36,600 nt of DNA from a virus, in IMG/VR virus record IMGVR_UViG_3300008262_000156, positions 1-36,600 of that record; one strand, given 5' to 3'. Every line of letters starts with the position of its first letter. Positions within the stretch are counted from its first letter, which is position 1. Shown piece after piece: positions 1,214-35,441 of the stretch. A program made the translations under genes and the position numbers. The notes below the pieces were generated by a model that was given only the letters and a program-made list of their open reading frames with translations, was not told the DNA's origin and made no database searches.

Positions 1214-1221
1214 AGGGTATG
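1214..1221 (-). promoter_or_regulatory. CATACCCT element upstream of fibre gene at 1190
   Basis: Exact copy (minus sense CATACCCT, followed by TGGGG) in the 98-base gap between the stop at 1289 and the start near 1190. A CCCC-GAACA-GGGG hairpin lies immediately before it. Probable promoter or processing element, inferred from recurrence at gene boundaries. Confidence 0.55.
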
Positions 1222-1288
1222 CCCCTGTTCGGGGGAGGGCTCGCTATGGGATTTCAGGTGGGCGGGCCGGCGTTCTGCGTCTGGAGCT

Positions 1289-3871
1289 TTAGGGCGTCAG
1301 CATGGGCATGACAACAGTGGAGTCGTCAACTTTGATAATGAAACCAAGCAGGATTGTTTTCGGCCTGGTTTCACTGTCGCCACCGCCGTCGATTGTCACC
1401 ACATGCGTGTGGCCGCCGGCTTCGTTGGTGGCACCGCCGTCGGCCTGCCACCAACCCGTGCTGGCAGTTGATGCTGATGCACGATCCCAGTTGATCAAGT
1501 TCTGGGAGTTGTTTGAGGCCCGCAACTGCAGCGAGTGCGTGTGTGCGCCGGCGGTATTGGTGGTAGCCGTGAACGCCGTCTTCGGCCGCGCTGTTGCATC
1601 CTCCTGCCTCCCCAGCGTCGCATTGGCCGCGCTGCCCCAGGTGCCATTGCCATTGAGGCCTGCGCCCCTCGGGTAAGCGCCGCGCATGTCCGGCAGCTTC
1701 AATCCCGGCAGCACTTTTGCCAGCTCGGGATACGCCGCGGCCGTAAACGCCGAGCCATCACACAGCAGCCAGCCCGCTGGCGCCACCGCTGACGGCCACA
1801 TCATCATCGAGCCGATCGGGCAGCCCACGCTCAGCAGCTGGTGCCCGCCCGTTAATTTCAGCGGGATGCCAGCCCCGCCAAACGGCATCCACTTGGTGTT
1901 GGCGCTGTCGTAGTAATAGAGCGCGCCATTGCCGCGAGCTTCCGCGCTGCTCAGCACATAGATGATGTCCTGCCGCGGCGAGTTGGTGATTGCATCTCGC
2001 TCGGCGTCAGTCGGCACCCAACGCACACCCGCCGCCAGGTCCAGCTTCACCCAAGGACTGACCGTGACATTGGCTTTGACATGCGTGATTGCCAGCTCGG
2101 TGCGGCTGACCGTCACCGTGAACGGTACACCAGCGGTCAACGCCGTCAGCTTGATTTGCGCGTTGGCGGGATTCACCACGCCGCCTGTGACCATCCCGGC
2201 TTCAACCTTCACCAACGCCGTGATCAGCGGCTCGGTGTTCAGCGCGGTGATCAACTTGGCAGTGATCACCGCTGCACTTTCACCCACCACTTGCGTGATG
2301 TAAGTCGCCGCGTGGCCGTCGACGCGGATCGTGAAGTCCGCGCCGGCCGCCAGACCAGCGGCCACCGTCAGATCAATCGTATCCACCTGGGCGACATTGA
2401 CGCCATCAACCGGCTCGCCATCGCTCACTGTCACCGCACTCAACGCACGCCACAGCGACTTGTTGTGCACGATCACCGTGCCGGCTTCATAGCTACCCGG
2501 CCGCCAGGTTTCATGGGAATACAGCGCTCGAGCCCGGGTGGCGGACAGCAGGTCGCCGCTCACCGTCACCCAATGTGCATCCACCACCGCTGGATCGGTG
2601 CTGCGGTTGGAGATCATGATCCAATCGCCTGGGTTCAGCCGCGCGCCATTGACATCACGGCCCAGACCGTTGGGATCGGTGGAGTTAATCGTGGTGCCGC
2701 TTGCACCCACGAAGATCCAGTAGTGCGCTGACAGCGCTTTCAGGCTGTCCAGCTTTGGATTACTGAGGTCCGGCAGTGCATCGAAATCAATAGCACCGGG
2801 CAGCGCCGCACCGCCCTCCACCACTGTGCCCTGGAACAGCGACAACGACGCAATCCAGCGCCGCACGGTTTCAGAATCCGTCGCCGGCACCGTCACCCAG
2901 GCGCCGGCTTTGGCATCAAACACCTTGATGCTTTCTTTGTCCTTCTCCAACGTCACCGTCAGATCGCCGCCTTTGGCGTCGGTGGTGTTGTCCCGATCGC
3001 TATTGAGGCTCTTCACCCACGTCGTCTGATCGACGATGTGCCACTCGCCCGTCTGCGGCACCTTCACGCCACCGGCGGCCGTCGTCTCGGCGGTGAGTTC
3101 ACGCCAGACCATCATCCGATCCAACGGCTGGCCATCAAGATCCAGCTGCACCATGTAAGTGCTGCCATCGGTGATCGGCCGCCCCACCACCGGCACCGGC
3201 AGGTTCACCGCCCGCGCTGCCCAGTGGTTGATCGGGAAGTTGTCCCGCAGCCGCTGCCAGGAGAAGACCGTGACCCAGGCGCCTTTGACGAAGACCTTCA
3301 GCTCTTCAACGCCAGGCTCGATCGTCAGCTGCAGATCGCCCTCCACCAACTTGTGGCCAGCGGCGCCGGTGGTGGCCACATCAGCGCTGGCGGCAAGCTG
3401 CTTGATGAAGGTGCGGGGCTCCACCGCCCAGTTCCAGCCACCCTGAATCGTGGTGGCCGCACCGCCCACCATTGGCCCCGGCGTGTTGATCTGCTCGTCC
3501 CAGACCACCAGACGGTTTTCTCCCGTCGTGCCATCTGGCGCAAAGCGCACCAGGAACGCATCGCCGCTCTTGAGCGCCTTGGCCTGTGGCGTGCCCGGCA
3601 CCGGCAGGTCCGTCACCTTGTCCACCACCCGCACCCCGGCGGTGGGGCGGAACTTCGCCAGGGTGTTGTCCTTCTTGCGCAGCCAGATGCACGGATCCTC
3701 CGTGCTGTAGTTCACCGCCAGCTCGCGCAGCTCCAGGAACTCGCGGCCGGCGCCGTCCAGGGCGTCCGGCTTGCCCGTCAGCAGCCCGTCATCGGTCGGA
3801 GCCTTGGCGCTGCCGCCCACCAGGGCATCCGTTCCACGCCAGTTGACGATCAGCACCGCGGCAGCCCACAC
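1289..3871 (-). CDS. Large tail fibre with collar domain
   Basis: 860 residues from a GTG at 3871; a second in-frame GTG at 3856 is also possible. The first GTG falls inside a strong RNA hairpin (3863-3895), so the true start is uncertain. Seen: an N-terminal RELAVNYSTEDPCIWL segment of the 'inhibitor of collar/fibre trimer' style seen in many phage fibres. Next come two similar blocks ending in a VFxxxxGAWVTV pattern, then a Thr/Val-rich beta domain around residues 490-600 (DFTIRVDGHAATYITQVVG). The C-terminus is a tail-collar domain: IGSMMMWPSAVAPAGWLLC, LPDMRGAYPRG, then paired His motifs (AHTHS, GHTHV). The C-terminal layout matches the neighbouring fibre at 1-1190, so the two may be alternative or successive receptor-binding tips. 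Virion-exposed adhesin by inference. Confidence 0.88.
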   Translation of the reverse strand: MWAAAVLIVNWRGTDALVGGSAKAPTDDGLLTGKPDALDGAGREFLELRELAVNYSTEDPCIWLRKKDNTLAKFRPTAGVRVVDKVTDLPVPGTPQAKALKSGDAFLVRFAPDGTTGENRLVVWDEQINTPGPMVGGAATTIQGGWNWAVEPRTFIKQLAASADVATTGAAGHKLVEGDLQLTIEPGVEELKVFVKGAWVTVFSWQRLRDNFPINHWAARAVNLPVPVVGRPITDGSTYMVQLDLDGQPLDRMMVWRELTAETTAAGGVKVPQTGEWHIVDQTTWVKSLNSDRDNTTDAKGGDLTVTLEKDKESIKVFDAKAGAWVTVPATDSETVRRWIASLSLFQGTVVEGGAALPGAIDFDALPDLSNPKLDSLKALSAHYWIFVGASGTTINSTDPNGLGRDVNGARLNPGDWIMISNRSTDPAVVDAHWVTVSGDLLSATRARALYSHETWRPGSYEAGTVIVHNKSLWRALSAVTVSDGEPVDGVNVAQVDTIDLTVAAGLAAGADFTIRVDGHAATYITQVVGESAAVITAKLITALNTEPLITALVKVEAGMVTGGVVNPANAQIKLTALTAGVPFTVTVSRTELAITHVKANVTVSPWVKLDLAAGVRWVPTDAERDAITNSPRQDIIYVLSSAEARGNGALYYYDSANTKWMPFGGAGIPLKLTGGHQLLSVGCPIGSMMMWPSAVAPAGWLLCDGSAFTAAAYPELAKVLPGLKLPDMRGAYPRGAGLNGNGTWGSAANATLGRQEDATARPKTAFTATTNTAGAHTHSLQLRASNNSQNLINWDRASASTASTGWWQADGGATNEAGGHTHVVTIDGGGDSETRPKTILLGFIIKVDDSTVVMPMLTP

Positions 3872-3895
3872 CCTCTATCGCCGAGGGTATGGGCT
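3863..3895 (-). other. 13-bp RNA hairpin containing the CATACCCT element
   Basis: In the minus-strand RNA, AGCCCAUACCCUC pairs with GAGGGUGUGGGCU over 13 pairs (one U-G wobble), with a 7-base loop GGCGAUA. In the plus-strand RNA the wobble becomes a C-A mismatch, so the fold favours the minus transcript. The candidate GTG start (3871) lies in the 3' arm, so this may sequester the start or mark a processing/termination site. No T-run follows. Confidence 0.6.
3884..3891 (-). promoter_or_regulatory. CATACCCT element upstream of the 860-residue fibre gene
   Basis: Exact copy, 22 bases after the stop at 3914 and 12 bases before the GTG at 3871. It forms most of the 5' arm of the hairpin at 3863-3895. 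Confidence 0.55.
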
Positions 3896-3913
3896 CAACC
3901 AGGGCAGGCCGCT

Positions 3914-4210: not shown

Positions 4211-4306
4211 GGTGAGTTGTGTGTCAGGAGAACACTAGACGGATCAGATGGGCGAGGTTGGGAGGCGGTGATCCCCAGCCGGCGTTGCGAATAACCGATG
4301 AACTGC

Positions 4307-4334
4307 TGGCACCCGGGTTCGGGCCCGAGTGCCA
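4307..4334 (-). other. 11-bp hairpin in intergenic gap 4211-4367
   Basis: In minus-strand RNA, UGGCACUCGGG pairs with CCCGGGUGCCA around a CCCGAA loop, 11 pairs with one U-G. It lies 34 bases after the stop at 4368 and about 97 bases before the ATG at 4210. It could be a terminator without a U-tract or an RNA-processing/stability element. The rest of the gap shows nothing else. Confidence 0.45.
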
Positions 4335-4367: not shown

Positions 4368-5039
4368 CTAACTCGTCGTCAGGGCAAACATGATGGTCTT
4401 GCCACTGCTAGGGCTGCCGCTGAACATGGCCTCCTTGCTGGCCCCAGCCGCAGCGGTAGCCGCCCTGGTCTCGGTGAACACGGCCATCGCCGTTCCATTT
4501 GAGTCAGGGGCGTTGCCGTACAGCAGCGTCATGTCCACGGGCGGTGTAGTCGGCGTTGCGGTGCTCGTCCATGCAGCGAAGTAGAACACAAGGGATGGCC
4601 CGGTTGTCCCCAGGTCGCTGGACTTGATGTTCTGCTCGTTGCCGATCTTCTGCCAGGTGGCGTTGCGGTAGACCACCATCGTGGCCCGCCAGTTGCGGCT
4701 GGTGTTGGTGCCGCTGGTAGTGAATGTGTAGCCGGTGGTGTTGTCCACGTCCGCCTGAGTGGCGACCTTGTAGGCAACGCCAAGGCCAGGGTAGCTGTTG
4801 CTACCAGCAAATCCAAAGGTGAAGGAGGAGTTGCTCCAACTGCCGCCCGTGTTCATGTTGCCGTTCAGCAGCACCATCATCAGGTCGCCAACCTGAACAC
4901 CAGCAGGCTTTGTGACGGTCACAAAGTTGCCGGCAGCCAGATTCGTGTTGGTGTTGATCCCGACCAGCGCAGTCCCGCCACCGGGGTCGGTGCCGCCACA
5001 GCCAGCCGCCATCATCAGCATCTGAGTGTTGAAGTCCAT
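4368..5039 (-). CDS. Putative tail/fibre-associated protein, beta-rich
   Basis: 223 residues from the ATG at 5039, five bases after the preceding stop. The open frame continues upstream, but that part is only the antiphase shadow of the neighbouring fibre gene. Seen: a Gly/Thr/Ser/Asn-rich, strongly beta-like sequence with alternating hydrophobics (DLMMVLLNGNM, WRATMVVYRNATWQKIG, LVFYFAAW, KTIMFALTTS) and no predicted helix or transmembrane segment. The layout resembles small all-beta sandwich proteins found beside phage fibres. Its N-terminus MDFNTQMLMMAAGCGG contains a Cys but is not a convincing lipobox. Co-transcribed with the fibre at 5045-6412. Function unknown; a carbohydrate-binding or fibre-tip role is inference. 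Confidence 0.72.
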   Translation of the reverse strand: MDFNTQMLMMAAGCGGTDPGGGTALVGINTNTNLAAGNFVTVTKPAGVQVGDLMMVLLNGNMNTGGSWSNSSFTFGFAGSNSYPGLGVAYKVATQADVDNTTGYTFTTSGTNTSRNWRATMVVYRNATWQKIGNEQNIKSSDLGTTGPSLVFYFAAWTSTATPTTPPVDMTLLYGNAPDSNGTAMAVFTETRAATAAAGASKEAMFSGSPSSGKTIMFALTTS

Positions 5040-5044
5040 GGCGA

Positions 5045-6412
5045 TCAGGTGGTGTAGTTGAGCAGGCTGGAACCGTGCCAGCTGGTGCCACCGTCGTCGG
5101 TGTGAAACATGAACAGGTGCGTCTTGCCGGCGGTGGGGGCAGGAGCAGTGCCGCCTGGCCACTTCACGGAAGCAGGCCAGGTAATGGCGCCGCTGGTGTG
5201 GATCACCTTCAACGTGAAGGCGTAGCTGCGGGCCGCAGGGGCACCGGAGAAGGTGAAGGCGCTGTCGGCGGCAACTGTCTTGGTGAAGTAGTTGCCCAGG
5301 CTGCAGTCGACCGCCAGGGCGGCAACGGGGGTGATGCCACCACTGATGACGGCGCTGGTGCCGGGTGCCGTGACCGTTGTCGCAACGACAGCCAGGGATC
5401 CATCCGGCTTGCGGTAGGTGTCGCCCGGCACCAGTTTCGCGGCCAGTGCCGCAGCGTTGTCGGCGTAGCTGGCAGTGGGAATGTTGAGGCCGCGCGTGGT
5501 TGCCAGCAACCTGCAAGCACCCCCTACGCTCAGCCCCAGCCCCATGAAGGTGCCGCCATAAAATCCTGTGGGTTTATCGCCAACAGGCGTCAACCCAGGC
5601 TCCGCCTCCGAGCCTTCGTTGAAGTTCAGCGGCCAATGATTGTTGTTCGGCATGAGGGCGTCGTTGATCTTAAGCCATAGGCTTTGATCACTGATCGGCA
5701 CCCAGCTGCTGCCGTTAAACATCAGGATGGAGCCGACAACTGCGCCGCTTGGCACCGCTGCCCAATCGGCATGGTGCGTGCCGATTCTCGACACCTCGAT
5801 CAGATCACCGGCTGCCGCCACATAGCCCACCGGCTTCGCTGCCGTGATGTCCACCCTGCCCTGCCAGGCCGTGCGCTGGCTGGCGGCAGTGCCGGCTCCA
5901 TCCCACCCGGTGCCGTCCCACACCAGCAGCTCATGCAGGCTCACCGCCTGGCCCGCCAGGCCAGTCCAGCTCGCATCCGCAGTGCCGGCCCTGCTCGCCA
6001 CATAGGTGTCGCCCGTCCCGGGTTTGGCCGGCGCCGAAGCCGCCACCGTCGGATCAATCGTGCCCTTGTAGGTCAGCGCATTCGCCAGGGCCGGCGGCAC
6101 TGCCGCGGGGCTGGCATCCACCCACACCGACACCGCCGGCGTACCACTCGTGTACCGCAGAAACAGCCGTGCGCTGGTGGTGTCCCACCACAGATCACCG
6201 TCCTTCGCGGTGGCCGGCGCCGCCGCGGCCACCGTCACGCCAGCGCCCGGCTTGAACTCGATCAGGGCGTTGTCGTCGCCCTTGATGATCAGCGCTGGAT
6301 CATCGTGGTGGTAGTTGATCGCCAGATCGCCATAGGCCATGTCCCCGGCCGCTGGCCGGCGCCCCTTGACGCTGGAGCGATACAGCCGGACATCCAGTGG
6401 TGACTTGGCCAT
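5045..6412 (-). CDS. Tail fibre-like protein
   Basis: 455 residues, ATG at 6412. Seen: an N-terminal RLYRSS...GDMAYGDLAINYHHDD segment, typical of fibre proteins that begin with a short reference-frame module. Then come at least two copies of a short module with the pattern P-x-x-x-G-D-L-W-W-D-T...W (KDGDLWWDTTSARLFLRY and similar), and a Gly-rich middle. The C-terminal domain (AFTLKVIHTSGAITWPASV, then THLFMFHTDDGGTSWHGSS) is one I associate with cyanophage fibre ends. It is the first gene after a combined CATACCCT element and terminator hairpin (6420-6466). The protein at 4368-5039 follows after five bases. Adhesion or baseplate-periphery role is inferred. Confidence 0.82.
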   Translation of the reverse strand: MAKSPLDVRLYRSSVKGRRPAAGDMAYGDLAINYHHDDPALIIKGDDNALIEFKPGAGVTVAAAAPATAKDGDLWWDTTSARLFLRYTSGTPAVSVWVDASPAAVPPALANALTYKGTIDPTVAASAPAKPGTGDTYVASRAGTADASWTGLAGQAVSLHELLVWDGTGWDGAGTAASQRTAWQGRVDITAAKPVGYVAAAGDLIEVSRIGTHHADWAAVPSGAVVGSILMFNGSSWVPISDQSLWLKINDALMPNNNHWPLNFNEGSEAEPGLTPVGDKPTGFYGGTFMGLGLSVGGACRLLATTRGLNIPTASYADNAAALAAKLVPGDTYRKPDGSLAVVATTVTAPGTSAVISGGITPVAALAVDCSLGNYFTKTVAADSAFTFSGAPAARSYAFTLKVIHTSGAITWPASVKWPGGTAPAPTAGKTHLFMFHTDDGGTSWHGSSLLNYTT

Positions 6413-6419: not shown

Positions 6420-6463
6420 AAAAACCCTGCAGACAGCCCCTAACAAGGGGTTGGCCGCAGGGT
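6420..6463 (-). terminator. Rho-independent terminator just upstream of fibre gene
   Basis: On the minus strand ACCCTGCGGCCAACCCC pairs with GGGGCTGTCTGCAGGGT (17 positions, two mismatches, two or more wobbles) around TTGTTA, and is followed by TTTTT. The 5' arm begins inside the CATACCCT element. The T-run ends eight bases before the ATG at 6412. It should stop transcripts arriving from the gene at 6496-6933. A transcript starting just downstream of the element would lack the 5' arm and escape. Confidence 0.75.
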
Positions 6464-6466
6464 ATG
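6459..6466 (-). promoter_or_regulatory. CATACCCT element overlapping terminator, upstream of 6412
   Basis: Exact copy in the gap between the stop at 6496 and the ATG at 6412. Its ACCCT forms the base of the terminator stem at 6420-6463. Confidence 0.6.
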
Positions 6467-8570: not shown

Positions 8571-9842
8571 TCAGAACTCACCCAAATCCAAGACCTGCAC
8601 CAGCTTGTAGGCGTTGGCAGCGCCATCGGCAGCAACAGATGAATCACGCACCAGAACACCTTTCATCTTGTCGGGAGCCACCGCCGCCACAGCGCTGTCG
8701 CTCACGTCGCCGCAGCCGTGCAGTGACAGCGGCGTCGCCACCAGGCCGGAGCTGATGACGTGCCAGACATCAGCTCCGCCGACATAAACGATGTGATCGT
8801 TGGCCGCCAGGACGCCGTTGATCCTGGCGTGATCGCCAACCGCCGTGCCGGCCTTCGAGACCACGAAGAAGTCGCCCTCCTTCAGGCCTGTGCCTGCACT
8901 CAGCTTGCCGGCCACCACCAGGCCGGCGCGGCCATTGGCTGCAGCGACGCTCGTCAGCGAAGCGATGCCACTGGTGGAGCCGTCGTAGGTGCCGAGCAGC
9001 GTCGAGCCGGTGATCAGCCCGGCGATCTGATCCGCCAGGCCCCGCAGCTGCTTGGCGGTCACCACGCCATTGGCGTTATTGGTGGTGGCGGCCGGATCAC
9101 CCGTCTCGGTGATGTCGGTGTCCCGGGCCAGCTGCACCACGCCCTTGACCGCGCCAGTGCCAGCCGCATTGGGGGCGGTGGCATCAGGGATGGCTGCGCC
9201 GGTCTTGATGAAGCTGCTGCCGTCATAGACGTAGCTGCCGGCGTCGGCGCCGGGGCCTGCCACGATCAGGATGTCGCCGGAGTGGAGATCGCCCTTGGCC
9301 GTGATGCCGGAGCCGGTCTTGGCAATGATCACCACCAGTGCCTTGGCGGTGATGTCCGCGCCGGCGGCAGTCGTGATCTCCGCCTGGGTGGCGCTGAACA
9401 CCTTCGGCGGCACGGTGGGGGACACCCAGTTGCTGCCGTTGTGCAGCATCAGGTAGGGCGCGCCAACGGCGGGCACCACCACAAACAGATCGCCCTTGCT
9501 GCCATTAGCAGCGACGGGCAGGGTGGGGCCGGAACCGAGGCCTTCGCCTTCCAGGTTGAAGATCTCGTAGCCCTCGCCCTGGTACATCGAGCCGGCCACG
9601 GCGCCAGTGGCGGGCCGTGCCGTCGCCACCTTTGCCGGCACCACCACATTGGTGACTCCGAAGATTGTGCCCGAGCCCGCCGCGACTGCCTGGCCACGCA
9701 CCAGCACGTCATCGCCGGCACAGCCGACCAGCAGCCACTTGTTGGCCAGGTTGAACGCGATCTGACCCGGCTTCAGGCCATCGGGCAGCTTGGTGGCCGT
9801 GGGCGTGCGCAGATGCTGCAGCGCAATCGGGGAAATGGCCAT
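8571..9842 (-). CDS. Tail fibre-like protein
   Basis: 423 residues, ATG at 9842. Seen: an N-terminus of the fibre type LxHLRT...TKLPDGLKPGQIAFNL (a short beta hairpin describing what a fibre 'has', common in phage fibres), then NKWLLVGCAGDDVLV. Repeated Gly/Ala/Val-rich beta segments follow, including GDLFVVV, GDILIVAG and GDFFVVS motifs that each open a short module, with VxLARDTDITETGD near residue 240. Upstream sit a CATACCCT element and a 7-bp inverted repeat ending at the ATG. No CATACCCT element separates it from the downstream fibre at 8516. A virion-exposed structural role is inferred. Confidence 0.8.
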   Translation of the reverse strand: MAISPIALQHLRTPTATKLPDGLKPGQIAFNLANKWLLVGCAGDDVLVRGQAVAAGSGTIFGVTNVVVPAKVATARPATGAVAGSMYQGEGYEIFNLEGEGLGSGPTLPVAANGSKGDLFVVVPAVGAPYLMLHNGSNWVSPTVPPKVFSATQAEITTAAGADITAKALVVIIAKTGSGITAKGDLHSGDILIVAGPGADAGSYVYDGSSFIKTGAAIPDATAPNAAGTGAVKGVVQLARDTDITETGDPAATTNNANGVVTAKQLRGLADQIAGLITGSTLLGTYDGSTSGIASLTSVAAANGRAGLVVAGKLSAGTGLKEGDFFVVSKAGTAVGDHARINGVLAANDHIVYVGGADVWHVISSGLVATPLSLHGCGDVSDSAVAAVAPDKMKGVLVRDSSVAADGAANAYKLVQVLDLGEF

Positions 9843-9872: not shown

Positions 9873-9880
9873 AGGGTATG
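9873..9880 (-). promoter_or_regulatory. CATACCCT element upstream of 9842
   Basis: Exact copy, five bases after the stop at 9886 and about 30 bases before the ATG at 9842. Confidence 0.58.
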
Positions 9881-9885: not shown

Positions 9886-10137
9886 CTAGAAGGAGCCCTC
9901 GTCCATTCCAGTGATCTGATTGGTGCCCGCATCGACGGAGACACCATTACCCGCCGACAGCCCTCCAGATGCCGGCACCAGCGTCTTGGTGGTGCCGGCC
10001 ACTTCGACGACATAGAGGCTGTTGGCATCAATCGCCCAGCAGGCCTCGCCGTCCTCCAGCGCGCTGAGGTTGGCCTGCAGATCCGCCAGATTGCCTCGAG
10101 CAAGGCGGATCGGCGTCCGATTGGCGGGTACTGGCAT
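9886..10137 (-). CDS. Small fibre-module protein
   Basis: 83 residues, ATG at 10137. Seen: an N-terminal RLARGNLADLQANLSALEDGEAC segment. It resembles the start of many fibre and baseplate proteins, in which RGxxxDLxxxxxxLxxGE precedes a short 'value display' hairpin (here ACWAIDANSLYVVEVAG). The C-terminus is Gly/Ser/Asn-rich (GLSAGNGVSVDAG). It looks like an isolated N-terminal fibre module, encoded as its own small protein rather than fused to a shaft. It could be a remnant of a larger fibre or a genuine small subunit. It has its own CATACCCT element upstream and another just after its stop. Confidence 0.7.
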   Translation of the reverse strand: MPVPANRTPIRLARGNLADLQANLSALEDGEACWAIDANSLYVVEVAGTTKTLVPASGGLSAGNGVSVDAGTNQITGMDEGSF

Positions 10138-10157: not shown

Positions 10158-10165
10158 AGGGTATG
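10158..10165 (-). promoter_or_regulatory. CATACCCT element upstream of 10137
   Basis: Exact copy, 11 bases after the stop at 10177 and 20 bases before the ATG at 10137. No clear flanking hairpin. Confidence 0.55.
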
Positions 10166-12809: not shown

Positions 12810-12817
12810 AGGGTATG
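12810..12817 (-). promoter_or_regulatory. CATACCCT element upstream of 12788
   Basis: Exact copy, 22 bases after the stop at 12840 and 21 bases before the TTG at 12788. Confidence 0.55.
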
Positions 12818-13927: not shown

Positions 13928-13965
13928 GCCTTGGGTGTCCTGGCCGCAGGGTATGGAGCCAAGGC
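13928..13965 (-). other. Inverted repeat flanking CATACCCT element
   Basis: GCCTTGG and CCAAGGC (7 perfect pairs) flank the element on the minus strand, with the element in the loop. The 3' arm ends two bases before the ATG at 13925. Confidence 0.45.
13948..13955 (-). promoter_or_regulatory. CATACCCT element upstream of 13925
   Basis: Exact copy, about 10 bases after the stop at 13966 and 22 bases before the ATG, in the loop of a 7-bp inverted repeat. Confidence 0.58.
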
Positions 13966-14916: not shown

Positions 14917-14924
14917 AGGGTATT
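14917..14924 (-). promoter_or_regulatory. CATACCCT-like element (AATACCCT) upstream of 14910
   Basis: One-mismatch variant overlapping the stop of the gene ending at 14924 and only six bases before the ATG at 14910. If it is a promoter, the transcript would be almost leaderless. Confidence 0.42.
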
Positions 14925-16626: not shown

Positions 16627-16634
16627 AGGGTATG
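16627..16634 (-). promoter_or_regulatory. CATACCCT element upstream of 16601
   Basis: Exact copy, four bases after the stop at 16639. Confidence 0.57.
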
Positions 16635-17180: not shown

Positions 17181-17188
17181 AGGGTATG
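17181..17188 (-). promoter_or_regulatory. CATACCCT element upstream of 17154
   Basis: Exact copy, 18 bases after the stop at 17207 and 26 bases before the ATG at 17154. No clear hairpin. Confidence 0.55.
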
Positions 17189-19938: not shown

Positions 19939-19946
19939 AGGGTATG
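19939..19946 (-). promoter_or_regulatory. CATACCCT element upstream of 19915
   Basis: Exact copy in the 46-base gap before the ATG at 19915. CTCCA and TGGAG (5 pairs) flank it, with the element partly in the loop. Confidence 0.57.
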
Positions 19947-20462: not shown

Positions 20463-20789
20463 TCAGGCAGCTGACTCGAGGGTAGGGGCCTCCTTCACGA
20501 AGATCCCGTCGACCATCCGGCCGCGCCGATCCTTGATCTCGCTCCAGGCGTGGGCGATCGCCTCCTCCACCGTGAAGCCCAGCTGGGCCGAGAGGATCGT
20601 CAGCACCACGATCGCGTCACCAACCCCATCGATCTGGCCGGCGGGGTTGCCCTTGGCGATCGCTGCAGCCAGCTCGCCCAGCTCCTCCACCAGCTTCAAC
20701 ATCTGGGCCTGCGGCACGCTGCCCTCAACCAGGTTGCGATCCGCCGCCCAGCCGCGGATCTGCTCAAACCCCTGCCACTGCTCCGTCAT
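20463..20789 (-). CDS. MazG-like nucleotide pyrophosphohydrolase
   Basis: 108 residues, ATG at 20789, three bases after the preceding stop. Seen: the all-alpha NTP-PPase core with LKLVEELGELAAAIAKG (EE..E, residues 35-39) and, 15 residues on, DGVGDAIVVLTILSAQLG (Asp 54 and 58), the metal-binding acidic set. Length is that of a single MazG-like domain. Known: MazG-like enzymes hydrolyse (d)NTPs or related nucleotides to the monophosphate and PPi. Cyanophages often carry mazG, usually among metabolic genes, so a copy inside the structural run is notable. Inferred role: nucleotide-pool or alarmone adjustment during infection. Activity not demonstrated from sequence. Confidence 0.82.
   Translation of the reverse strand: MTEQWQGFEQIRGWAADRNLVEGSVPQAQMLKLVEELGELAAAIAKGNPAGQIDGVGDAIVVLTILSAQLGFTVEEAIAHAWSEIKDRRGRMVDGIFVKEAPTLESAA
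20479..20486 (-). promoter_or_regulatory. CATACCCT-like element (CCTACCCT) before 20456
   Basis: Variant copy inside the 3' end of the MazG-like gene, about 22 bases before the GTG at 20456. Supported mainly by its spacing to the next start. Confidence 0.4.
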
Positions 20790-21257: not shown

Positions 21258-21265
21258 AGGGTAGG
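21258..21265 (-). promoter_or_regulatory. CATACCCT-like element (CCTACCCT) upstream of 21230
   Basis: Variant copy in the divergent gap between the HNH gene (plus strand) and the HhH gene, 27 bases before the ATG at 21230. The rest of the 134-base gap holds a 14-base segment shared with the other HNH gene but no other clear signal. Confidence 0.42.
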
Positions 21266-25612: not shown

Positions 25613-25844
25613 AGAAATCGTGGACTACGACTGGCTCAATTGCAAGCTCAGCGACGTAAGTGGGGTGCGGGCGATAGAGCTCAGCACCCAACAGCTTGGG
25701 AAAGTCGGAATCAATCCACAAAGCGGATAGCGCCTCCTGCGCGAAATCGGTGGAGAACGCACCGAGGACAAGCCCCCCGTGCTTGTCTGACGAAGGTATG
25801 TACTCTCCTGCCTGTGTAAGCCCGTCAGCGCATGGCCGCCCCAC
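25613..25844 (-). CDS. Major capsid protein, exon 1
   Basis: The MCP N-terminal exon, 77 codons plus one base if it starts at the GTG at 25844. Seen: GAFSTDFAQEALSALWIDSD, then FPKLLGAELYRPHPTYVAEL and EPVVVHDF, then the splice in phase. The start is not settled: the GTG at 25844 has no clear Shine-Dalgarno sequence and overlaps the start of the antisense endonuclease. An in-frame ATA at 25799 has AGGAG five bases upstream. A TTG further in (residue LW) follows AGGAGG, but would cut into the likely core. A 7-bp hairpin (GACAAGC/GCTTGTC, 25767-25787) lies just after the ATA. Total spliced length from the GTG is 432 residues. Confidence 0.75.
25793..25800 (-). promoter_or_regulatory. CATACCCT-like element (CATACCTT) near MCP start
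   Basis: One-mismatch copy, followed by CG as in several exact copies. It overlaps the candidate ATA start and lies between the antisense endonuclease and MCP exon 1. If it is functional, the MCP start must be downstream of it. Confidence 0.38.
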
Positions 25845-26659: not shown

Positions 26660-27428
26660 CGGCCAGGAAGTCGCGGCCGGGGCTGCCGGCCATCCGCGTG
26701 CCGCTGCCCGGCCTGCGCAGCATCGGATTGACGCTGTTCAGCAGGGCGGCCTGGCTCTGCTGCACATAATCGGCCAGGCCGTTGGGCTTGATTGTCCCCA
26801 GCGGCGTGGCGAGCAGTCCGCTCAGGGCGACGGAACCCGCCGTGTTGCTGCCCAGCAGGGAGGCGGGAGCCCCGGGCATCGGCAGGCCACCACCACCACC
26901 ACCGCCGCCGCCGCCGCTACCACCGTCACTGGCGGTGCCGGCAGCAGCAGTGCCGTTGCCAGGATTCGGGGCTGCCCCCAGCCGGCCCTGGTAGAAGCCC
27001 AGCAGCTCCCTCTGCCCCTTCACCGGCTGGCCGTAGTAGCTCTTGCCCGCCGCCGTCGGCAGCGACGCCCACTCCGGCGACAGCTTGGCCAGGGCCTCTG
27101 TCGTCATCGGCTTGGATGGATCCACGCCACGATCACGGATCAGCTGCAGCGCCGCCCGGTCCTGGGACTCCGGCGAGAAGTCCTTCAGCCCTAGCCGGCC
27201 CGCCACGCCCTTCCAGGTATCCGGCATGAACTGGTACGCGCCCGCCGCGGCCGAGGCGTACCCGCCGGAGCGCACCACCTGATCGGGGTGGCCCTTGCTC
27301 CAGTCGAACTGGCCACCGCCGAACATCGTGCCGTAGCCCTTCTGCCCGCCGCCGTGCCAAGTCCCCTCCGCCATGCGGATGGTGTCGAGGTAAGCGCGTT
27401 CGTTGGCGCCAATCGCTGCCTGGGCCAT
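26625..27428 (-). CDS. Lambda-R-like lysozyme (GH104 family), virion-associated candidate
   Basis: 267 residues, ATG at 27428. Seen: residues about 10-150 match the lambda endolysin layout: AYLDTIRMAEGTW with the likely catalytic Glu at 21, GYGTMFGGGQFDWSKGHPDQ, AAGAYQFMPDTWKGVAGRLG, LKDFSPESQDRAALQLIRDR and ELLGFYQG. Known: this family is a peptidoglycan lytic transglycosylase that cleaves between MurNAc and GlcNAc. Unusual: about 115 extra residues follow, beginning with a poly-Gly linker (ten Gly, about 172-181) and ending in LLNSVNPMLRRPG...FLAVMQKLIQPLEI. It lies in the head module between portal and capsid, with no holin visible. It could therefore be a particle-borne enzyme for DNA entry as well as, or instead of, a lysis enzyme. 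Confidence 0.87.
   Translation of the reverse strand: MAQAAIGANERAYLDTIRMAEGTWHGGGQKGYGTMFGGGQFDWSKGHPDQVVRSGGYASAAAGAYQFMPDTWKGVAGRLGLKDFSPESQDRAALQLIRDRGVDPSKPMTTEALAKLSPEWASLPTAAGKSYYGQPVKGQRELLGFYQGRLGAAPNPGNGTAAAGTASDGGSGGGGGGGGGGLPMPGAPASLLGSNTAGSVALSGLLATPLGTIKPNGLADYVQQSQAALLNSVNPMLRRPGSGTRMAGSPGRDFLAVMQKLIQPLEI
26889..26920 (-). repeat. Poly-glycine codon tract in lysozyme gene
   Basis: Run of CCACC/CCGCC-type triplets (plus strand) encoding about ten consecutive glycines between the catalytic domain and C-terminal extension of the lysozyme. Simple triplet repeat, prone to length change. Confidence 0.75.
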
Positions 27429-27431: not shown

Positions 27432-27650
27432 CTACTCGCTGAGAAGTTCGAATCGCCTGGAGACCGACGGGCTGCTGCCCGCCGCCAGATCCGCTGCGGT
27501 CCGCGCCGCCGCGGCCTCGGCCGACAGGCCCTTGCTCTGGTAGTTCGCCAGAAAGTCCTGCACCTGATCCACTGGATCGGATGCAGGACTCGTGGCGCTC
27601 AGTCGCTGGATGGCGCCGATGACCTGCGGGGATGCAGCAAGGCGCGTCAA
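27432..27650 (-). CDS. Small Ala-rich protein
   Basis: 72 residues from a TTG at 27650; no ATG is in reach. Seen: a helical N-terminal part (LAASPQVIGAIQRLSATSPA), then VDQVQDFLANYQSKGLSAEA and AAARTAADLAAG, strongly helical, ending in SRRFELLSE. No recognised domain. It is followed after a few bases by the lysozyme gene and preceded by an exact CATACCCT element, so it likely opens the lysozyme transcription unit. It has no membrane segment and is not a holin on present evidence. Possibly a small internal virion protein. Confidence 0.6.
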   Translation of the reverse strand: MTRLAASPQVIGAIQRLSATSPASDPVDQVQDFLANYQSKGLSAEAAAARTAADLAAGSSPSVSRRFELLSE

Positions 27651-27671: not shown

Positions 27672-27679
27672 AGGGTATG
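27672..27679 (-). promoter_or_regulatory. CATACCCT element upstream of 27650
   Basis: Exact copy, 18 bases after the stop at 27698 and about 21 bases before the TTG at 27650. No strong hairpin. Confidence 0.56.
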
Positions 27680-29901: not shown

Positions 29902-31008
29902 TCAGCCCTCCATGAACAGCAGCTTGGAACGGATCGCCTCGGGATCGGCCTGGGCCAGCACCTTCCAGGCGTCCTGGGGGGCGACATCCATGGCCTGGGA
30001 GAAGGCACCCCAGACATTGCCGTTGCCGGCCATGCGGGGCGATGCACCGGGCTGGGGCATCGGCATCTGGGGCCGCTGGAACTGCTGAGGAGCTTCCTGC
30101 GCCATGGCGTCCATCCGGGGGTTGCCGGCGGAGGGCATCAGCGGACCGTCCTGGCTGATCATCCCTTCGGCGAGGGCCTGCTGGGCCTGCTCGGCGGGAG
30201 TCTGCACGGGGTAGGGACCGTCAGCAGAGAAGAAGTTCTTGACGTAGTCGCTCAGCACATCGGGGTTGGTCAGCACCGTCAGCATCGACTCGCGGTCAGC
30301 TGTCGCCGCCGCCAGCACTTCCTGCACCCGCTCGATGTACTCGTGCTGCTGCCCGAGTGCCGCGGCCTGCTGCTGCTGATGGGCGAGGGACTGCAGCAGG
30401 GCATCCTCCACCTGGCAGGAGTAGGTGTTGAGCTTGACCGGCGCTTCAGGGCCGAAGTGGCTCAGGACCTCGAGGGACTCGTTGGAGATGTTGTCGAGGT
30501 AGGAGTCACCGCGCTGGGCGCTTGCCGCGGCCTGCTGCGCGGCCATTGCCTGCGCCTGCTGCTGGCTGATCGCCTGCTGCTGCAGCGTCTGGTTGGCCGC
30601 CTGGGCCGCCAGGTACTGGACGTCCGCCGCCGACAAGCCCGAAGTTGGTTGCGGCGAGTAGGTCTGGGGCGCCGATACCGCCTGTTGGGCCTGGACCCAG
30701 TTGGCCGCCTGCCCCTGCGTCAGGCCGCTGGGGGTCGAAATTGAGGGTGCCGCCCACCCCTGGTAGGCCTGCGCTGGAGTCTGGGCGCCGACCAGCTGAC
30801 TGAAGGCCTGCTGCCACTGAGCTTGCCCCGAATCCCAGTTGCCCGGTGTAGGTGCCGCCACCGGCTGCCCAGGCATCGGTGAGATAGGAGCCGAAGGCAT
30901 CGCGCCGGCGGGCAGCACGCTGCTGTTCCAGCTCGGTTGGCTCGCCTCGGCTGGCGCGTAGGCGATCGGCGTCTGAGAGGGTTGGGGGGAGGCTTGCGGG
31001 ATCGACAT
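29902..31008 (-). CDS. Gln/Pro-rich protein, candidate scaffold, overlapping portal
   Basis: 368 residues from an ATG at 31008; ATGs further in (for example 30900) are alternatives. Its first ~500 bases overlap the portal C-terminus in another frame. Seen: a Pro/Ser/Gln-rich N-terminus (QASPQPSQTPIAYAPAEASQ), then strongly Gln/Ala helical sequence (AQAANQTLQQQAISQQQAQA), a better ordered core (NESLEVLSHFGPEAPVKLNT), and an acidic C-terminal half. The C-terminal half lies outside the overlap and is unambiguously coding. Position after the portal, Gln/Ala helices and lack of enzyme motifs fit a scaffolding protein, a role inferred and not proven. The overlap length is unusual. Confidence 0.7.
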   Translation of the reverse strand: MSIPQASPQPSQTPIAYAPAEASQPSWNSSVLPAGAMPSAPISPMPGQPVAAPTPGNWDSGQAQWQQAFSQLVGAQTPAQAYQGWAAPSISTPSGLTQGQAANWVQAQQAVSAPQTYSPQPTSGLSAADVQYLAAQAANQTLQQQAISQQQAQAMAAQQAAASAQRGDSYLDNISNESLEVLSHFGPEAPVKLNTYSCQVEDALLQSLAHQQQQAAALGQQHEYIERVQEVLAAATADRESMLTVLTNPDVLSDYVKNFFSADGPYPVQTPAEQAQQALAEGMISQDGPLMPSAGNPRMDAMAQEAPQQFQRPQMPMPQPGASPRMAGNGNVWGAFSQAMDVAPQDAWKVLAQADPEAIRSKLLFMEG

Positions 31009-32788
31009 CTTGGTACTTGCCGGAGTAACTGAGTTCTTGCCTCAGGAAGGCGAGGGTTTTGTAGATATAGGGAACAAGATCAAGGTTGGGATCCGCCGCA
31101 AGCGGGAGATCCGGCTCCTGGGGGTGGGGCACCTGGAACATGCCTCGCAGCATGTCCATGAAGATCCCAGCCTGTCTTGCCGTGCTCTCTACAACCCGGA
31201 AGGGAAAACCGCTGAGCATTGCTGAGCGTTCTTCCGGGGTTTTTTGAGGGAACAGGAACTGAAGCGCCTCGATACTCGATACGCCCAGCTCCTGAAGGTT
31301 CCTGCAGACAATGGAGTTCTGCAGGATTTCCTGAGGCGAATCCTCGAAGATTTCCCCCATCCACCTCCAGGATATGGAGGCCGATCCATCGGGGATCAGC
31401 CCCACCACCTGGGGCGGCACCTCCCCTGTCTCCTTGATGTGGGCCACGGCCTCGCCGACCTGCTGTCGCCAGGCGCTTGTCGCCGCCTGGTACTGCTGCT
31501 CCAGGGCCTGGAACTCCTCAGGCGGCAGGGCCATCGCTTCCGCCAACGGCGGTTCGGGCTTCTGGATCCCCAGCGCCTGGCCGAGGGACTCGCGGAACAA
31601 CGTCTCCTCGTGCGTCACCATCAGCGAGAACAGCCTGCAGAAGCCGTACTCGAACAGGTCCCGGCACTTCTTCTTTGCCGTCGCCGCTACCCGGCCGTAG
31701 AGGGTGCGGACCTCGTAGGCCGTGGCGCCGCTGTTGATCGAGAGATCATCCACACCGCCCAGGGCCGCGCGGATCATCTCCTGGTACGCCTGGCTGTAGG
31801 CCGTCAGATCGCCGCCGACGCTGTCGGGCGTGATGTAGCCCACCCGATCAGCCGCCTCGACGTTGGCGATGATCCGCGGCACCCGCATCCCACCGCCGAA
31901 GCCGCTGTTCGCCGGATCAGAGGAGCGTGTGGCGGCACGGTTGAGGCCGATGAAGCCGCTGTTGGAGCTGATCGTCGCCTTGCCGCCAGAGTCGCCATCG
32001 GGCTCGAGCAGATCGTGCTTCGGCCGGCTGGAGACCAGGGTGGGGTTGCCGAAGAAGTTCAGGTTCGACTTGATCGACTTGACCATCTTGTCGTGCTGCA
32101 AGATGTGGCTGGCCAGCCAGTCGAACTCGCCGTGGCCGGAGCCGGCCTGCAGACCGCGGTTGTTGAAGACCTCGACCGCGGGGATGAAGCCCAGGGTGTT
32201 GAGCAGCGTGCTGACCTGCCCGCCCAGCACCGCTTCAGCGCTGAAGTCCGGCTTCTGATTGGTGATCGTTTGCTCGATGCGATCGGCGAAGACCCGCATC
32301 CGCAGCCAGCGCAGTTCGCTGTTGGAACCGCCACCCATGTAGCGTGCGGCGCCATCAAGCTGATCTGAACCGAGGGAAGATCCGAAGCCGCGGGGCGGAC
32401 GGACGCGGAAGGAGTAGATGATCTGCACCTCCTCCAGCGCGCCTTCCTCATCGTAATAAGATCTAAACTGGTCTTGATTGAAGTAGTGGATCCGATAGAG
32501 ATCCTTGCTGGGTCTGAAATACAGCAGGCCGCGGCCGTCAATCATCAGGCTATCGAAGATAGCCTCCAATCGCCCGGGGAGCTCGTTGTATTCGACGACG
32601 CGGCGCAGGAACTCGCGGCGCTGCGCGAAGGTGTCCTGCGTGGCAAAGAACTCGATCCCCTGCCTGATGCCGAAAAGCCTTAGCTGTGCAAGATGCGAGG
32701 CGACCACCAGCGTGTCCACGCCTTCGCTGGATGTCCGCGAGCGCGCTGCCTCGAGGATCTGCTGAAAACGCTGTTGGTCGAGGGACAT
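30506..32788 (-). CDS. Portal protein
   Basis: 760 residues, ATG at 32788. Seen: an N-terminal domain (FQQILEAARSRTSSEGVDTL, then EFLRRVVEYNELPGRLEAIF), DGRGLLYFRPSKDLYRIHYF, HDKMVKSIKSNLNFFGNPTL, and AYSQAYQEMIRAALGGVDD...TAYEVRTLYGRVAATAKKK, the long stem/crown helix region typical of portals. About 595 residues are clearly portal-like. The last ~165 overlap the next gene in another frame and are Gly/Pro-rich (GGGTYTGQLGFGASS and later), so the functional end may be earlier. Known: portal rings form the DNA entry vertex and bind the terminase. The resemblance is to portals of cyanophage siphovirus-like groups, recognised by pattern only. An exact CATACCCT element lies upstream. Confidence 0.85.
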   Translation of the reverse strand: MSLDQQRFQQILEAARSRTSSEGVDTLVVASHLAQLRLFGIRQGIEFFATQDTFAQRREFLRRVVEYNELPGRLEAIFDSLMIDGRGLLYFRPSKDLYRIHYFNQDQFRSYYDEEGALEEVQIIYSFRVRPPRGFGSSLGSDQLDGAARYMGGGSNSELRWLRMRVFADRIEQTITNQKPDFSAEAVLGGQVSTLLNTLGFIPAVEVFNNRGLQAGSGHGEFDWLASHILQHDKMVKSIKSNLNFFGNPTLVSSRPKHDLLEPDGDSGGKATISSNSGFIGLNRAATRSSDPANSGFGGGMRVPRIIANVEAADRVGYITPDSVGGDLTAYSQAYQEMIRAALGGVDDLSINSGATAYEVRTLYGRVAATAKKKCRDLFEYGFCRLFSLMVTHEETLFRESLGQALGIQKPEPPLAEAMALPPEEFQALEQQYQAATSAWRQQVGEAVAHIKETGEVPPQVVGLIPDGSASISWRWMGEIFEDSPQEILQNSIVCRNLQELGVSSIEALQFLFPQKTPEERSAMLSGFPFRVVESTARQAGIFMDMLRGMFQVPHPQEPDLPLAADPNLDLVPYIYKTLAFLRQELSYSGKYQDVDPASLPPTLSDADRLRASRGEPTELEQQRAARRRDAFGSYLTDAWAAGGGTYTGQLGFGASSVAAGLQSAGRRPDSSAGLPGVGGTLNFDPQRPDAGAGGQLGPGPTGGIGAPDLLAATNFGLVGGGRPVPGGPGGQPDAAAAGDQPAAGAGNGRAAGRGKRPAR

Positions 32789-32808
32789 CGGCGGGGTCGA
32801 TCAACCCG

Positions 32809-32816
32809 AGGGTATG
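32809..32816 (-). promoter_or_regulatory. CATACCCT element upstream of portal
   Basis: Exact copy, five bases after the large-terminase stop (32821) and 20 bases before the ATG at 32788. Confidence 0.58.
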
Positions 32817-32820
32817 GGGC

Positions 32821-34377
32821 TCAGTCGTCGCGCCACTGGCCCCAGGCGGGCTGGAGCCGACCGGGGCCCACCAGGCCCTTGATCGCCAGCAGAAACGAGT
32901 CAGGGCAGTCGTCGTGGTCGGTCGACCCGTAGTTGAGAAACTCCGGCCAGTAACCGTTGTCCCAGTTGATCCAGCGGTTCCAGAGGATGCGCCCGGTCTG
33001 GAACAGGCCGAGGGCGCCGCGGAAGCGGGAGAGCTTGTCGCCGCGGTAGCCGGTGACGGCCTTGAGCACGAGGTTGTGGAGGCTGCGCTTGTCGTGCAGG
33101 ATCTCTTTGGCGTCGGCCTGGAGGGACTGCTGGTAGCTGATCGCCTCGATGTTGATCGTGACCGGCACGTCGGTGGGGAACCAGTCGATGGTGCCGTCGG
33201 GCTTCTCCTCGCCTTCGACCAGCAGGCCCCAGTCCGCGAGGAGCTCGCAGAGGGCATCGATCTTCTCCAGGTTGCCCATGGAGCGCAGGCGGCGGAAGTC
33301 GATGATCTCAATCTTGTCGCCGCTGATGCCGGCAAGGGTCATCACGGTCCAGTCATTCCTTTCCTTCAAGCCTGAGCTCAGGTCAATGCCGACGCAGAGG
33401 CCGTCGTATTCGCTGGTGAGATCGCCGAGCTTGAGCCAGTCAGCCGGAAAGTCAATCTCAGATCTTGAGACTGGCTGGTTCTGGAATTGAAAAGCGAAGC
33501 TCAGTAAATCCTCGGAGCGCAGCTTGCGCAAATGCTCCAGTGTGTAGAAGCCGGGCCAATAGCTTCTCTCAAGGCCGTTCTCGTCAGTTTCGATGGCCTG
33601 CTGGGTGACCACCCTCCAGCCATTCTTTTCGTTGAATGTCGTTCCAAAAATATCAACAGTAGAAAAGCGGGTGCCGAGGGCGATGCAGCGCCCGCCCTCC
33701 AGCAGGGTAGGCTGCACAACCTCAGTCCAGTTCGTAATCAGCTTGCGACGGATCTCAGGATTTTGGATCGATTCCGAGCTTTTGACGACGTCATCAAGTA
33801 CGATAAGTTGCGAGCGACGGCTAGTAATTGAGCCCGAAAGCCCTTGTGCTACCACTGAATAAGGGTCTGCCGCCGCAACGTCGACGCCGGCGAACTCGTA
33901 GTCGATGCTCCATAGCTCGTCAGACTGACGCGCCTTGGACAGTCTGACCATCGGGAACACCTCTTGATAATTGCGTCCACCAATAATTGTCTTGATTGTA
34001 TGGCTCCGAGATCTGGCAATATCAAGGCTGTACCCTAGGTACAGCATCTGCAGCATCTTCCCCGCCTGCGCGTGAGTGCCGATCAGCCACGCGCAAAGCA
34101 TGCCCAGCACGGTTGACTTGGCGGATCCCCGCGGCGCGAGCACAGCCGTATTGGGGCCAGCGCATTGCAAGAGCTGCGTGGAGTCTGTTCTGGTGACAAA
34201 CTCCTCGACCCAGCGCTTGTGATGCTCGGCGTTTGGCTTGCCAAGCAGTTCGCAGAAAGCCCCAAAGTCTGAGCGGGCCATCCGCGTCAGTGACGGGACT
34301 TCCAGCTCGACCTTGGTAACGCCCAAAGCTAGGGCCTTGGCCCTGCGCAGGTGAGCCATGGAAATCTCAACGCTCAC
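32821..34377 (-). CDS. terL: Large terminase subunit
   Basis: 518 residues from a GTG at 34377 overlapping the HNH stop (GTGA); an ATG at 34359 is an alternative start. Seen: Walker A APRGSAKST (81-89), a LWSIDYEFAG segment, Walker B LIVLDDV (191-197), the coupling-like ALGTRFST (233-240), and the C-terminal nuclease with GIDLSSG (Asp near 332) and a late DDCPDSFLLAIKGL Asp cluster. Known: TerL is the packaging ATPase and headful/cos nuclease, docking on the portal. The KSTVLGMLCAW...YSLDIARSRSHTIK pattern resembles terminases of cyanosiphoviruses. Intact, no intron seen. Confidence 0.93.
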   Translation of the reverse strand: MSVEISMAHLRRAKALALGVTKVELEVPSLTRMARSDFGAFCELLGKPNAEHHKRWVEEFVTRTDSTQLLQCAGPNTAVLAPRGSAKSTVLGMLCAWLIGTHAQAGKMLQMLYLGYSLDIARSRSHTIKTIIGGRNYQEVFPMVRLSKARQSDELWSIDYEFAGVDVAAADPYSVVAQGLSGSITSRRSQLIVLDDVVKSSESIQNPEIRRKLITNWTEVVQPTLLEGGRCIALGTRFSTVDIFGTTFNEKNGWRVVTQQAIETDENGLERSYWPGFYTLEHLRKLRSEDLLSFAFQFQNQPVSRSEIDFPADWLKLGDLTSEYDGLCVGIDLSSGLKERNDWTVMTLAGISGDKIEIIDFRRLRSMGNLEKIDALCELLADWGLLVEGEEKPDGTIDWFPTDVPVTINIEAISYQQSLQADAKEILHDKRSLHNLVLKAVTGYRGDKLSRFRGALGLFQTGRILWNRWINWDNGYWPEFLNYGSTDHDDCPDSFLLAIKGLVGPGRLQPAWGQWRDD

Positions 34378-35252
34378 GCCGCGACCCCCAGCGCTCGCTC
34401 AAAGCGCTCAGCAAGCAAGCCCGAACGATGAAGTCGCCAGGCGTGTTGATAGCTAATGTCTAAAAGCTCGCACGCTTCGACCAGCAAAAAGCTACCCTTG
34501 CTTGTTTCGACAGCTATTGTGTTTCGACGGTTTCGGCAGTTTTGCGCTGGCGTCACCCATTGACAGTTCTCGGGTGAATACCCAGCGCTGTTATCGCGCC
34601 GGTCGAGCTGATGATCGGCGGTAGGGGGAGCGCCCATGTCTTCAAGGAAATACTCAAACCCAGCAAGCCATCGCTCGCAAACAGTGATTCCCCTTCCTCC
34701 GTAATCAGGCCAGCTCAGCGAAAAAGGGTTATGGCACCTGCTGACCATCCCCAAGTACCGAACATAAACAGAGCTTTTCCCGCCCGCTCTTGCGTATCCA
34801 TGCCTAAGATTATTACCTTCACGTTTGATGCACCCACAGCTCTTGGACAGCCCTTTCACGAGGCTTTTCACCAGGACTGATTTCTCAACACCGCTTCCGC
34901 AGCCGCAGCGCACGAGCGCCGCTGGCTCGTGATGGACCCCGCTCAGGCACGTCTTGCTCGGATAGCCGATGTCCGCTGCGGGGCCGAGGACCGTCCAGCG
35001 GCCGAACACGGTCCCCGCCTCTGGCTGCGCCAAGCGCTTGCTCCCCTTTCGGAGCTGCCGCTCTTCTTCTTTCCAGCAGCCGCAGCTCATGCTGCACTTG
35101 CCGAGGTTGCCTCCGTGCACCAACACGCAGACCCTCCCGCAGTCGCACTCACACCACCAGCGAACGGTCTTCCGGCCTTTGTTCGGCCCTCGCTTCACAA
35201 CCGTCAGGCGACCGTGCTTCTCGCCAGTCCTGTCCCGTAGAGTCGATCCCAT
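34374..35252 (-). CDS. HNH homing endonuclease between terminase genes
   Basis: 292 residues from the ATG at 35252, preceded by AGAGG; the longer open frame starts inside a terminator and is unlikely. Seen: two Cys-rich treble-clef-like segments (RWWCECDCGRVC...SCGC and a second CGCGSG...SCGC), MVSRCHNPFSLSWPDYGGRG, and the HNH core ADHQLDRRDNSAGYSPENCQ with trailing NCRNRRNT. The His-x-x-Asp pair and the Asn are present, so catalysis is plausible. A C-terminal DISYQHAWRLHRSG looks helix-turn-helix-like. Paralogous to the gene at 21365-22189, and a 14-base segment is shared just upstream of both. It lies between small and large terminase, overlapping the large-terminase GTG by four bases. Known: freestanding HNH genes often insert between terminase genes. 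Confidence 0.88.
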   Translation of the reverse strand: MGSTLRDRTGEKHGRLTVVKRGPNKGRKTVRWWCECDCGRVCVLVHGGNLGKCSMSCGCWKEEERQLRKGSKRLAQPEAGTVFGRWTVLGPAADIGYPSKTCLSGVHHEPAALVRCGCGSGVEKSVLVKSLVKGLSKSCGCIKREGNNLRHGYARAGGKSSVYVRYLGMVSRCHNPFSLSWPDYGGRGITVCERWLAGFEYFLEDMGAPPTADHQLDRRDNSAGYSPENCQWVTPAQNCRNRRNTIAVETSKGSFLLVEACELLDISYQHAWRLHRSGLLAERFERALGVAA

Positions 35253-35326
35253 CAGCCTCTTGCTCAGGTTGGTCACGCCGCAGGTGTTCCACCACGCTGC
35301 GGCACCCCAAGACCCTAGGCCATCCC

Positions 35327-35344
35327 TGTCCACCCGGGTGGACA
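35327..35344. promoter_or_regulatory. 18-bp perfect palindrome upstream of HNH gene
   Basis: TGTCCACCC and GGGTGGACA form a perfect 18-bp dyad with no spacer, 75 bases upstream of the HNH ATG. It could be an operator for a dimeric regulator, an endonuclease site or a cruciform. No known operator recognised. Confidence 0.5.
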
Positions 35345-35406
35345 AATCAGTGGAGGCCGCGGCCGATTTGTCTGAAGGGCCTCGCGTGGGCGAGGAAAAA
35401 TGCTGG

Positions 35407-35441
35407 AAAAAAATCCGGCCCATGCAGCGAGGGTATGGGCC
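35407..35441 (-). terminator. Rho-independent terminator after the small terminase gene
   Basis: Minus strand: GGCCCAT, loop ACCCTCGCTGC, ATGGGCC (7 perfect pairs), GG, then ATTTTTTT. The CATACCCT element spans the 5' arm and loop. It lies about 22 bases after the stop at 35463. Confidence 0.78.
35430..35437 (-). promoter_or_regulatory. CATACCCT element within terminator, after terS
   Basis: Exact copy forming the end of the 5' arm and the start of the loop of the terminator at 35407-35441. A transcript starting in the loop would lack the 5' arm. The rest of the 210-base gap to the HNH ATG holds the 18-bp palindrome and a CCTCG/CGAGG hairpin. Confidence 0.6.

Follow-up and report, generated by a model that had tools for sequence, protein, structure and literature searches.

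A proposed C-rich -10 element, probably read by a phage sigma factor, at late gene boundaries in uncultured relatives of cyanophage S-EIV1

Results

Structural genes of an S-EIV1-like virus

The stretch of DNA analysed here (hereafter, the window) is a 36.6-kb linear virus record (IMG/VR IMGVR_UViG_3300008262_000156, positions 1 to 36,600) made up almost entirely of minus-strand structural genes, including those for the large terminase, a portal-type virion protein, the major head protein, lysozyme and tail fibres. Genes were called with a simple codon-usage finder, and their start positions are approximate. Among isolated phages, Synechococcus phage S-EIV1 is the closest (terminase 45%, portal-type protein 47%, major head protein 53%), and the window represents the structural half of an uncultured S-EIV1 relative, a virus of cyanobacteria. 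S-EIV1-like viruses, to which hundreds of contigs were matched, are a large and mostly uncultured family. Close relatives of the window in IMG/VR (designated here by G numbers) include two long genomes, G006 (90,162 bp) and G011 (96,597 bp); the early half is missing from the window itself and from G005, G009 and G010, all of which are fragments. A scan of genome contigs with the portal protein mainly hit metagenome-assembled bins, at 33-49%, and gave no named host for the window’s clade.

Several further features lie among the structural genes. The major head protein gene has two apparent group I introns, at 23811-24929 and 25280-25625 (-), which match Rfam RF00028 slightly below the gathering score (E 1.8e-7 and 6.6e-9); the first contains an open reading frame (ORF) for a LAGLIDADG-type endonuclease on the opposite strand (23819-24745). 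Opposite-strand ORFs or gaps are likewise found within or adjoining the major head protein gene in G006, G008 and S-EIV1. A gene for a MazG-like nucleotide pyrophosphohydrolase (20463-20789 (-); PF03819, E 4.6e-5) sits within the structural module. Two further ORFs, at 34374-35423 (-) and 21365-22189 (+), share a WWCECDCGR motif and look HNH endonuclease-like by eye, with no Pfam match.

A conserved octamer lies between genes on the late strand

The initial annotation listed 13 exact copies of an octamer, CATACCCT, lying between genes in a single orientation, with less than one copy expected by chance. Every coordinate is correct: all 13 copies are on the minus (coding) strand and none on the plus strand, and all lie outside called genes, 5-68 nt past the preceding stop and mostly 20-30 bases ahead of a start codon. 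Across 100 dinucleotide shuffles, the mean number of copies was 0.43 and the maximum 3.

Four near-copies had also been noted (14917, 20479, 21258 and 25793), each of which carries one mismatch. When a matrix built only from sites in the relatives (n = 53) was applied to the window with a threshold of 12 bits, it returned 16 minus-strand sites and one plus-strand match within a gene, compared to 0.45 expected overall. The 16 sites (Table 1) are the 13 octamers together with three of the near-copies, AATACCCT at 14917 and CCTACCCT at 20479 and 21258 (12.1-15.7 bits). The fourth near-copy, at 25793, scored 7.5 bits, which is chance level, and was dropped as a promoter; the plus-strand match at 16216 was also rejected as chance.

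Table 1. Predicted late promoters in the window; scores are from the relatives-only matrix.
Element	Position (strand)	Predicted start	Location	Score (bits)	Conservation
CATACCCT	35430..35437 (-)	~35423	Head of terminase region, before HNH-like ORF 34374-35423	18.5	
CATACCCT	32809..32816 (-)		Before portal-type gene 30506-32788	16.4	TACCCT at junction in 10/10 high-GC relatives
CATACCCT	27672..27679 (-)	27665	Before gene 27432-27650 / lysozyme-like 26625-27428	20.8	
CCTACCCT (variant)	21258..21265 (-)		Before 20793-21230	12.1	TACCCT at matching boundary in G009, G005, G006
CCTACCCT (variant)	20479..20486 (-)		Before 19962-20456	15.7	G005, G006, G008, G009, G010
CATACCCT	19939..19946 (-)		Before 18716-19915	17.8	
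CATACCCT	17181..17188 (-)		Before 16639-17154	13.7	G005, G006, G009, G010
CATACCCT	16627..16634 (-)	16620	Before 14924-16417	14.4	
AATACCCT (variant)	14917..14924 (-)		Before 13966-14910	15.3	
CATACCCT	13948..13955 (-)	13941	Before 13527-13925	20.5	G006, G011
CATACCCT	12810..12817 (-)	12803	Before ORF 12234-12788	15.7	
CATACCCT	10158..10165 (-)		Before 9886-10137	15.4	
CATACCCT	9873..9880 (-)	9866	Before 8571-9842	21.8	G009
CATACCCT	6459..6466 (-)	6452	Before 5045-6412	17.4	G009
CATACCCT	3884..3891 (-)		Before tail-fibre gene 1289-3871	16.3	G009
CATACCCT	1214..1221 (-)	1207	Before 3-1190	15.2	

An initiator block lies at a fixed distance from the octamer

Alignment of 45 distinct intergenic octamer copies from the window and its relatives revealed a second block that the initial annotation had missed, a conserved C-A-R at a fixed six-base distance downstream; YC is favoured immediately upstream of the octamer. 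The base at offset 6 is A in 27 of 44 distinct intergenic sites (binomial p ~2e-10) and in 9 of the 13 window sites taken alone, leaving about 40% of sites without an A exactly at this offset, and the base right after it is a purine in 40/44. The A-R at offset 6 is absent from four intragenic octamer copies. No -35 element was found, as no column in the -35 area of the aligned sites exceeds 0.3 bits.

Taking the A as +1, TACCCT spans -12 (its first T) to -7 (its last T) and is followed by a six-base discriminator. Window-type sites thereby share with sigma-70-type -10 elements T(-12), A(-11) and T(-7), with a purine at the predicted start 6-7 bases downstream, and they lack the -35 element that sigma-70-type promoters have at a spacing of 16-18 bp. 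They also differ from the promoters of T7-like single-subunit polymerases, which extend about 20 bp and reach +1, in that the motif is 8 bp long with a free six-base gap. At the head of the terminase region, ORF 34374-35423 begins at the predicted start site of its promoter, so the real start codon is probably internal, or the ORF is leaderless.

The element is conserved among relatives

Conservation in related genomes bears out the element, which is kept in the relatives, the portal junction included (Table 1). G005 has 12 copies of CATACCCT on a single strand, and G009 and G010 each have several copies of ATACCCT or TACCCT. The long genome G006 has 19 copies on the minus strand, 17 of them within 48.8-86 kb and the others at 4.6 and 9.0 kb; its two opposite-strand copies are both intragenic and without the initiator, such that initiator-bearing copies occur on the late strand only. 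G011 and G008 mainly carry (C)GTACCCTG, with the spacing to the initiator unchanged. The bases preceding TACCCT are CA in the nearest clade and often CG or TG in the more distant G011 and G008; the eight-base core proposed from the window alone holds in the nearest clade, and the part that is invariant across the relatives is TACCCT.

Upstream of genes, TACCCT outnumbers every one of its own anagrams in eight of nine high-GC records; the remaining one, G007 (13.5 kb), contains a single TACCCT site. The same comparison showed no TACCCT excess upstream of genes in S-EIV1 or G013, and the S-EIV1 portal junction reads TACACT, with an identical gap to an A. A set of 8-mers of the CTGGTAC type, noticed initially in S-EIV1 and G007, was dropped, as it was not among the motifs enriched upstream of genes.

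One ORF near the lysozyme gene lies on the opposite strand (25832-26659 (+)) and is LAGLIDADG_2-like, below the Pfam cut-off. It has counterparts in G006 (75382), G009 (19873), G010 (14013), G003 (13133) and G004 (15618). In these relatives the ORF has its own upstream TACCCT, followed by a conserved GCCTGTGTAAG block; the window reads TACTCT.

In two long relatives, a sigma factor with altered region 2.4 accompanies the motif

The initial annotation raised a sigma factor or a single-subunit RNA polymerase as what might be encoded elsewhere in the genome. Both long motif-bearing relatives, G006 and G011, encode a sigma-70-family protein whose -10-reading helix is altered, and they are the only two of 26 family records with a sigma-70 region 2; S-EIV1 and G013 have no sigma-70 region 2 gene. 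The G006 protein has 296 residues (G006 39525-40415 (+); 4526-5416 of locus L027), and its matches to Pfam Sigma70_r1_2, r2 and r4 are above cut-off, with r3 slightly below (25.2 vs 25.3 bits). It thus has the regions 1.2, 2, 3 and 4 of an RpoD-like (group 1/2) sigma factor, and its closest relatives among solved structures are SigA proteins from cyanobacteria. The two phage proteins are 41% identical and group together at 99%. A close-relative scan with the G006 protein returned only itself, while a two-sequence alignment used as query reached the G011 type and more distant sigma factors. An AlphaFold model from the two sequences (mean pLDDT 66, pTM 0.41) was too poor for a fold search.

Region 2.4 reads WWAQQSCQI in G006 and WYAMAACQQ in G011, as opposed to the WWIRQ type in 39 other viral sigma factors and SigA (residues are given in E. 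coli numbering, by alignment). In those 39 and SigA, position 435 is I or V, 436 is R, K or Q, Q437 is invariant and 441 is nearly always R. The residues at 435, 436, 437 and 441 are A, Q, Q and I in G006 and A, M, A and Q in G011; in both proteins C replaces I439, Q stands at 440 and R441 is lost. The residues that read the -10 element, Q437, T440 and R441, are conserved across phyla (PMC8407463), and substitutions at 437 and 440 change recognition of -12 (PMC2613000). The corresponding residues are Q, Q and I in G006 and A, Q and Q in G011.

Because region 2.4 is rewritten in this pair, and because TACCCT is not clearly enriched in viral contigs that carry other sigma genes, the G006/G011 sigma factor, whose gene the window fragment does not contain, is the best candidate reader of TACCCT. 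No clear TACCCT set was seen around either of the nearest outside sigma factors, L224 and L229. We regard it as probable that a phage sigma factor reads the TACCCT promoter. Co-occurrence of sigma gene and motif comprises few cases, because the gene is found in two genomes only and the window and three of its relatives are incomplete. Two observations count against recognition by this factor: the -35 element is absent although the candidate has regions 3 and 4, and T(-12) is kept although the nearby residues Q437 and T440 differ. A sigma factor with full regions 3 and 4 normally uses a -35 element as well.

That pairing is odd enough to give some room to another route, in which a host sigma factor modified by a phage co-activator, or an unrecognised phage polymerase, reads the late promoter and the G006/G011 sigma factor serves other promoters. 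Recognition of TACCCT by the sigma factor is, moreover, something that we infer, for a gene that is not in the window fragment. We nevertheless consider this other route distinctly less likely, as sigma factor and motif occur together in both long genomes and the -10-reading helix is altered in exactly those two. Nor was another transcription enzyme found: the matches listed for 64 early ORFs of G006 include no polymerase family, and no single-subunit RNA polymerase turned up. That listing, which for PHROGs runs to 25 families, contains no gp55 or gp33. A search with PF00940 (RNA polymerase) gave no match, and its controls were equally silent.

Discussion

We think it very likely that CATACCCT is a promoter. 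The initiator at -10 spacing, the absence of a -35 element, restriction to the late strand, location at operon heads and conservation in relatives favour a late promoter for a phage factor, the first of two readings offered by the initial annotation; the second, an RNA-processing signal, is not favoured. The octamer probably serves as the -10 element in a late promoter that is specific to the phage and read by host core polymerase with a phage sigma-70-family factor, and most likely turns on the virion genes of the window’s virus. In the layout we propose, TACCCT would occupy about -12 to -7, followed by the six-base discriminator, with transcription starting at the A of the C-A-R initiator and without a -35 element. 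About 16 such promoters would stand at the front of short operons in the structural module, always on the late strand, and most likely be read by host core RNA polymerase and the phage-encoded factor, with the rewritten region 2.4 corresponding to a hexamer in which T(-12), A(-11) and T(-7) are kept and CCC replaces the A/T-rich middle. To the motif, initiator, positions, conservation and altered-region-2.4 sigma factor of both long motif-bearing relatives, which were established computationally, this adds a start at the A, activity late in infection and recognition by a G006/G011-type sigma factor, all of which we infer; the window’s virus presumably carries such a gene.

If the sites were ordinary promoters for host SigA, of the loose TAnnnT form, their T(-12), A(-11), T(-7) and six-base discriminator would suit a sigma-70 -10 element, but the CCC is invariant, GC-rich middles oppose melting, there is no -35 element, and TACCCT is not clearly enriched in related S-EIV1-type genomes or other sigma-bearing viral contigs, making this explanation improbable. 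Slightly more doubtful still is a processing or stability signal in a polycistronic late mRNA: copies just past stops and ahead of starts in a single orientation would suit it, yet it predicts neither an A/R initiator at exact -10 spacing nor a partner sigma factor with a changed region 2.4. Mycobacteriophage stoperators are likewise short, asymmetric, uniformly oriented intergenic sites, but the two-block -10/initiator layout is unexpected for one-way protein-binding sites of this type, or for recombination boundary sequences, and we rate these the least probable of all.

A phage sigma factor paired with a late promoter is a known kind of system. The late promoters of T4, read by gp55, and their counterparts in cyanophage S-PM2 are lone -10-type octamers with no -35 conservation, present in tens of near-identical copies at late genes and used by host core with a phage sigma factor (PMC2988020), as we propose here for the window. 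The T4 consensus is TATAAATA rather than CATACCCT, and the candidate sigma factor is not gp55-like but a full RpoD-like protein with regions 1.2-4. In phiEco32 and 7-11, a phage sigma factor related to the sigma-70 group reads phage-specific middle/late promoters with a 9-bp element, tAATGTAtA (PMC4331800); these belong to another phage family and have another sequence, the window’s promoters being distinguished by a C-rich core. Group 2-like sigma genes, RpoD-like as are those of G006 and G011, are known from the cyanosiphoviruses S-CBS1, S-CBS3, KBS-S-2A and P-SS2, and the P-SS2 factor has been taken to read canonical sigma-70 promoters (PMC2784084). Microcystis phage Ma-LMM01 relies on SigA-like promoters throughout infection (PMC5780444). 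The viral sigma relatives compared here keep a WWIRQ-type region 2.4, whereas the G006/G011 pair does not and has a matching promoter set. No TACCCT-type promoter was described among the papers searched, and the combination of a C-rich -10 element with a matching altered helix is new as far as our searches reach.

The sister lineage differs from the window’s clade in having neither a sigma-70 region 2 gene nor a TACCCT excess. In S-EIV1 and G013, A/T-rich TTAAAATA-like sites lie ~14-25 bases ahead of many late starts, and in S-EIV1 TAAAATA-like sites stand before some late genes in place of TACCCT. This suggests that the late promoter switched upon gain of the sigma factor; alternatively, the lower-GC relatives could simply use host-like promoters. 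We give roughly even odds to a switch of promoter specificity within one phage family, in which a lineage gained an RpoD-like sigma factor, its region 2.4 was rewritten for the GC-rich TACCCT and the late promoters followed. Early regions have recurrent sequences of their own. Genes of the early region in S-EIV1 (4.3-44 kb) and on the minus strand of G013 are preceded more often than expected by ACTCAAC or CAACTCA, which may act in early or middle regulation in the S-EIV1 lineage; CGGGGGCC-type blocks, which recur upstream of early genes in G006 (0-46 kb) and of minus-strand early genes in G011, may be terminator stems or another element.

For the window’s clade of S-EIV1-like viruses, these findings provide a readable late-gene programme together with a candidate regulator. 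The proposed pair of sigma helix and -10 element, in which the usual A/T-rich middle is CCC, would be a natural one that allows a test of which residues read -10 to -8, and may offer an orthogonal sigma/promoter pair for cyanobacteria.
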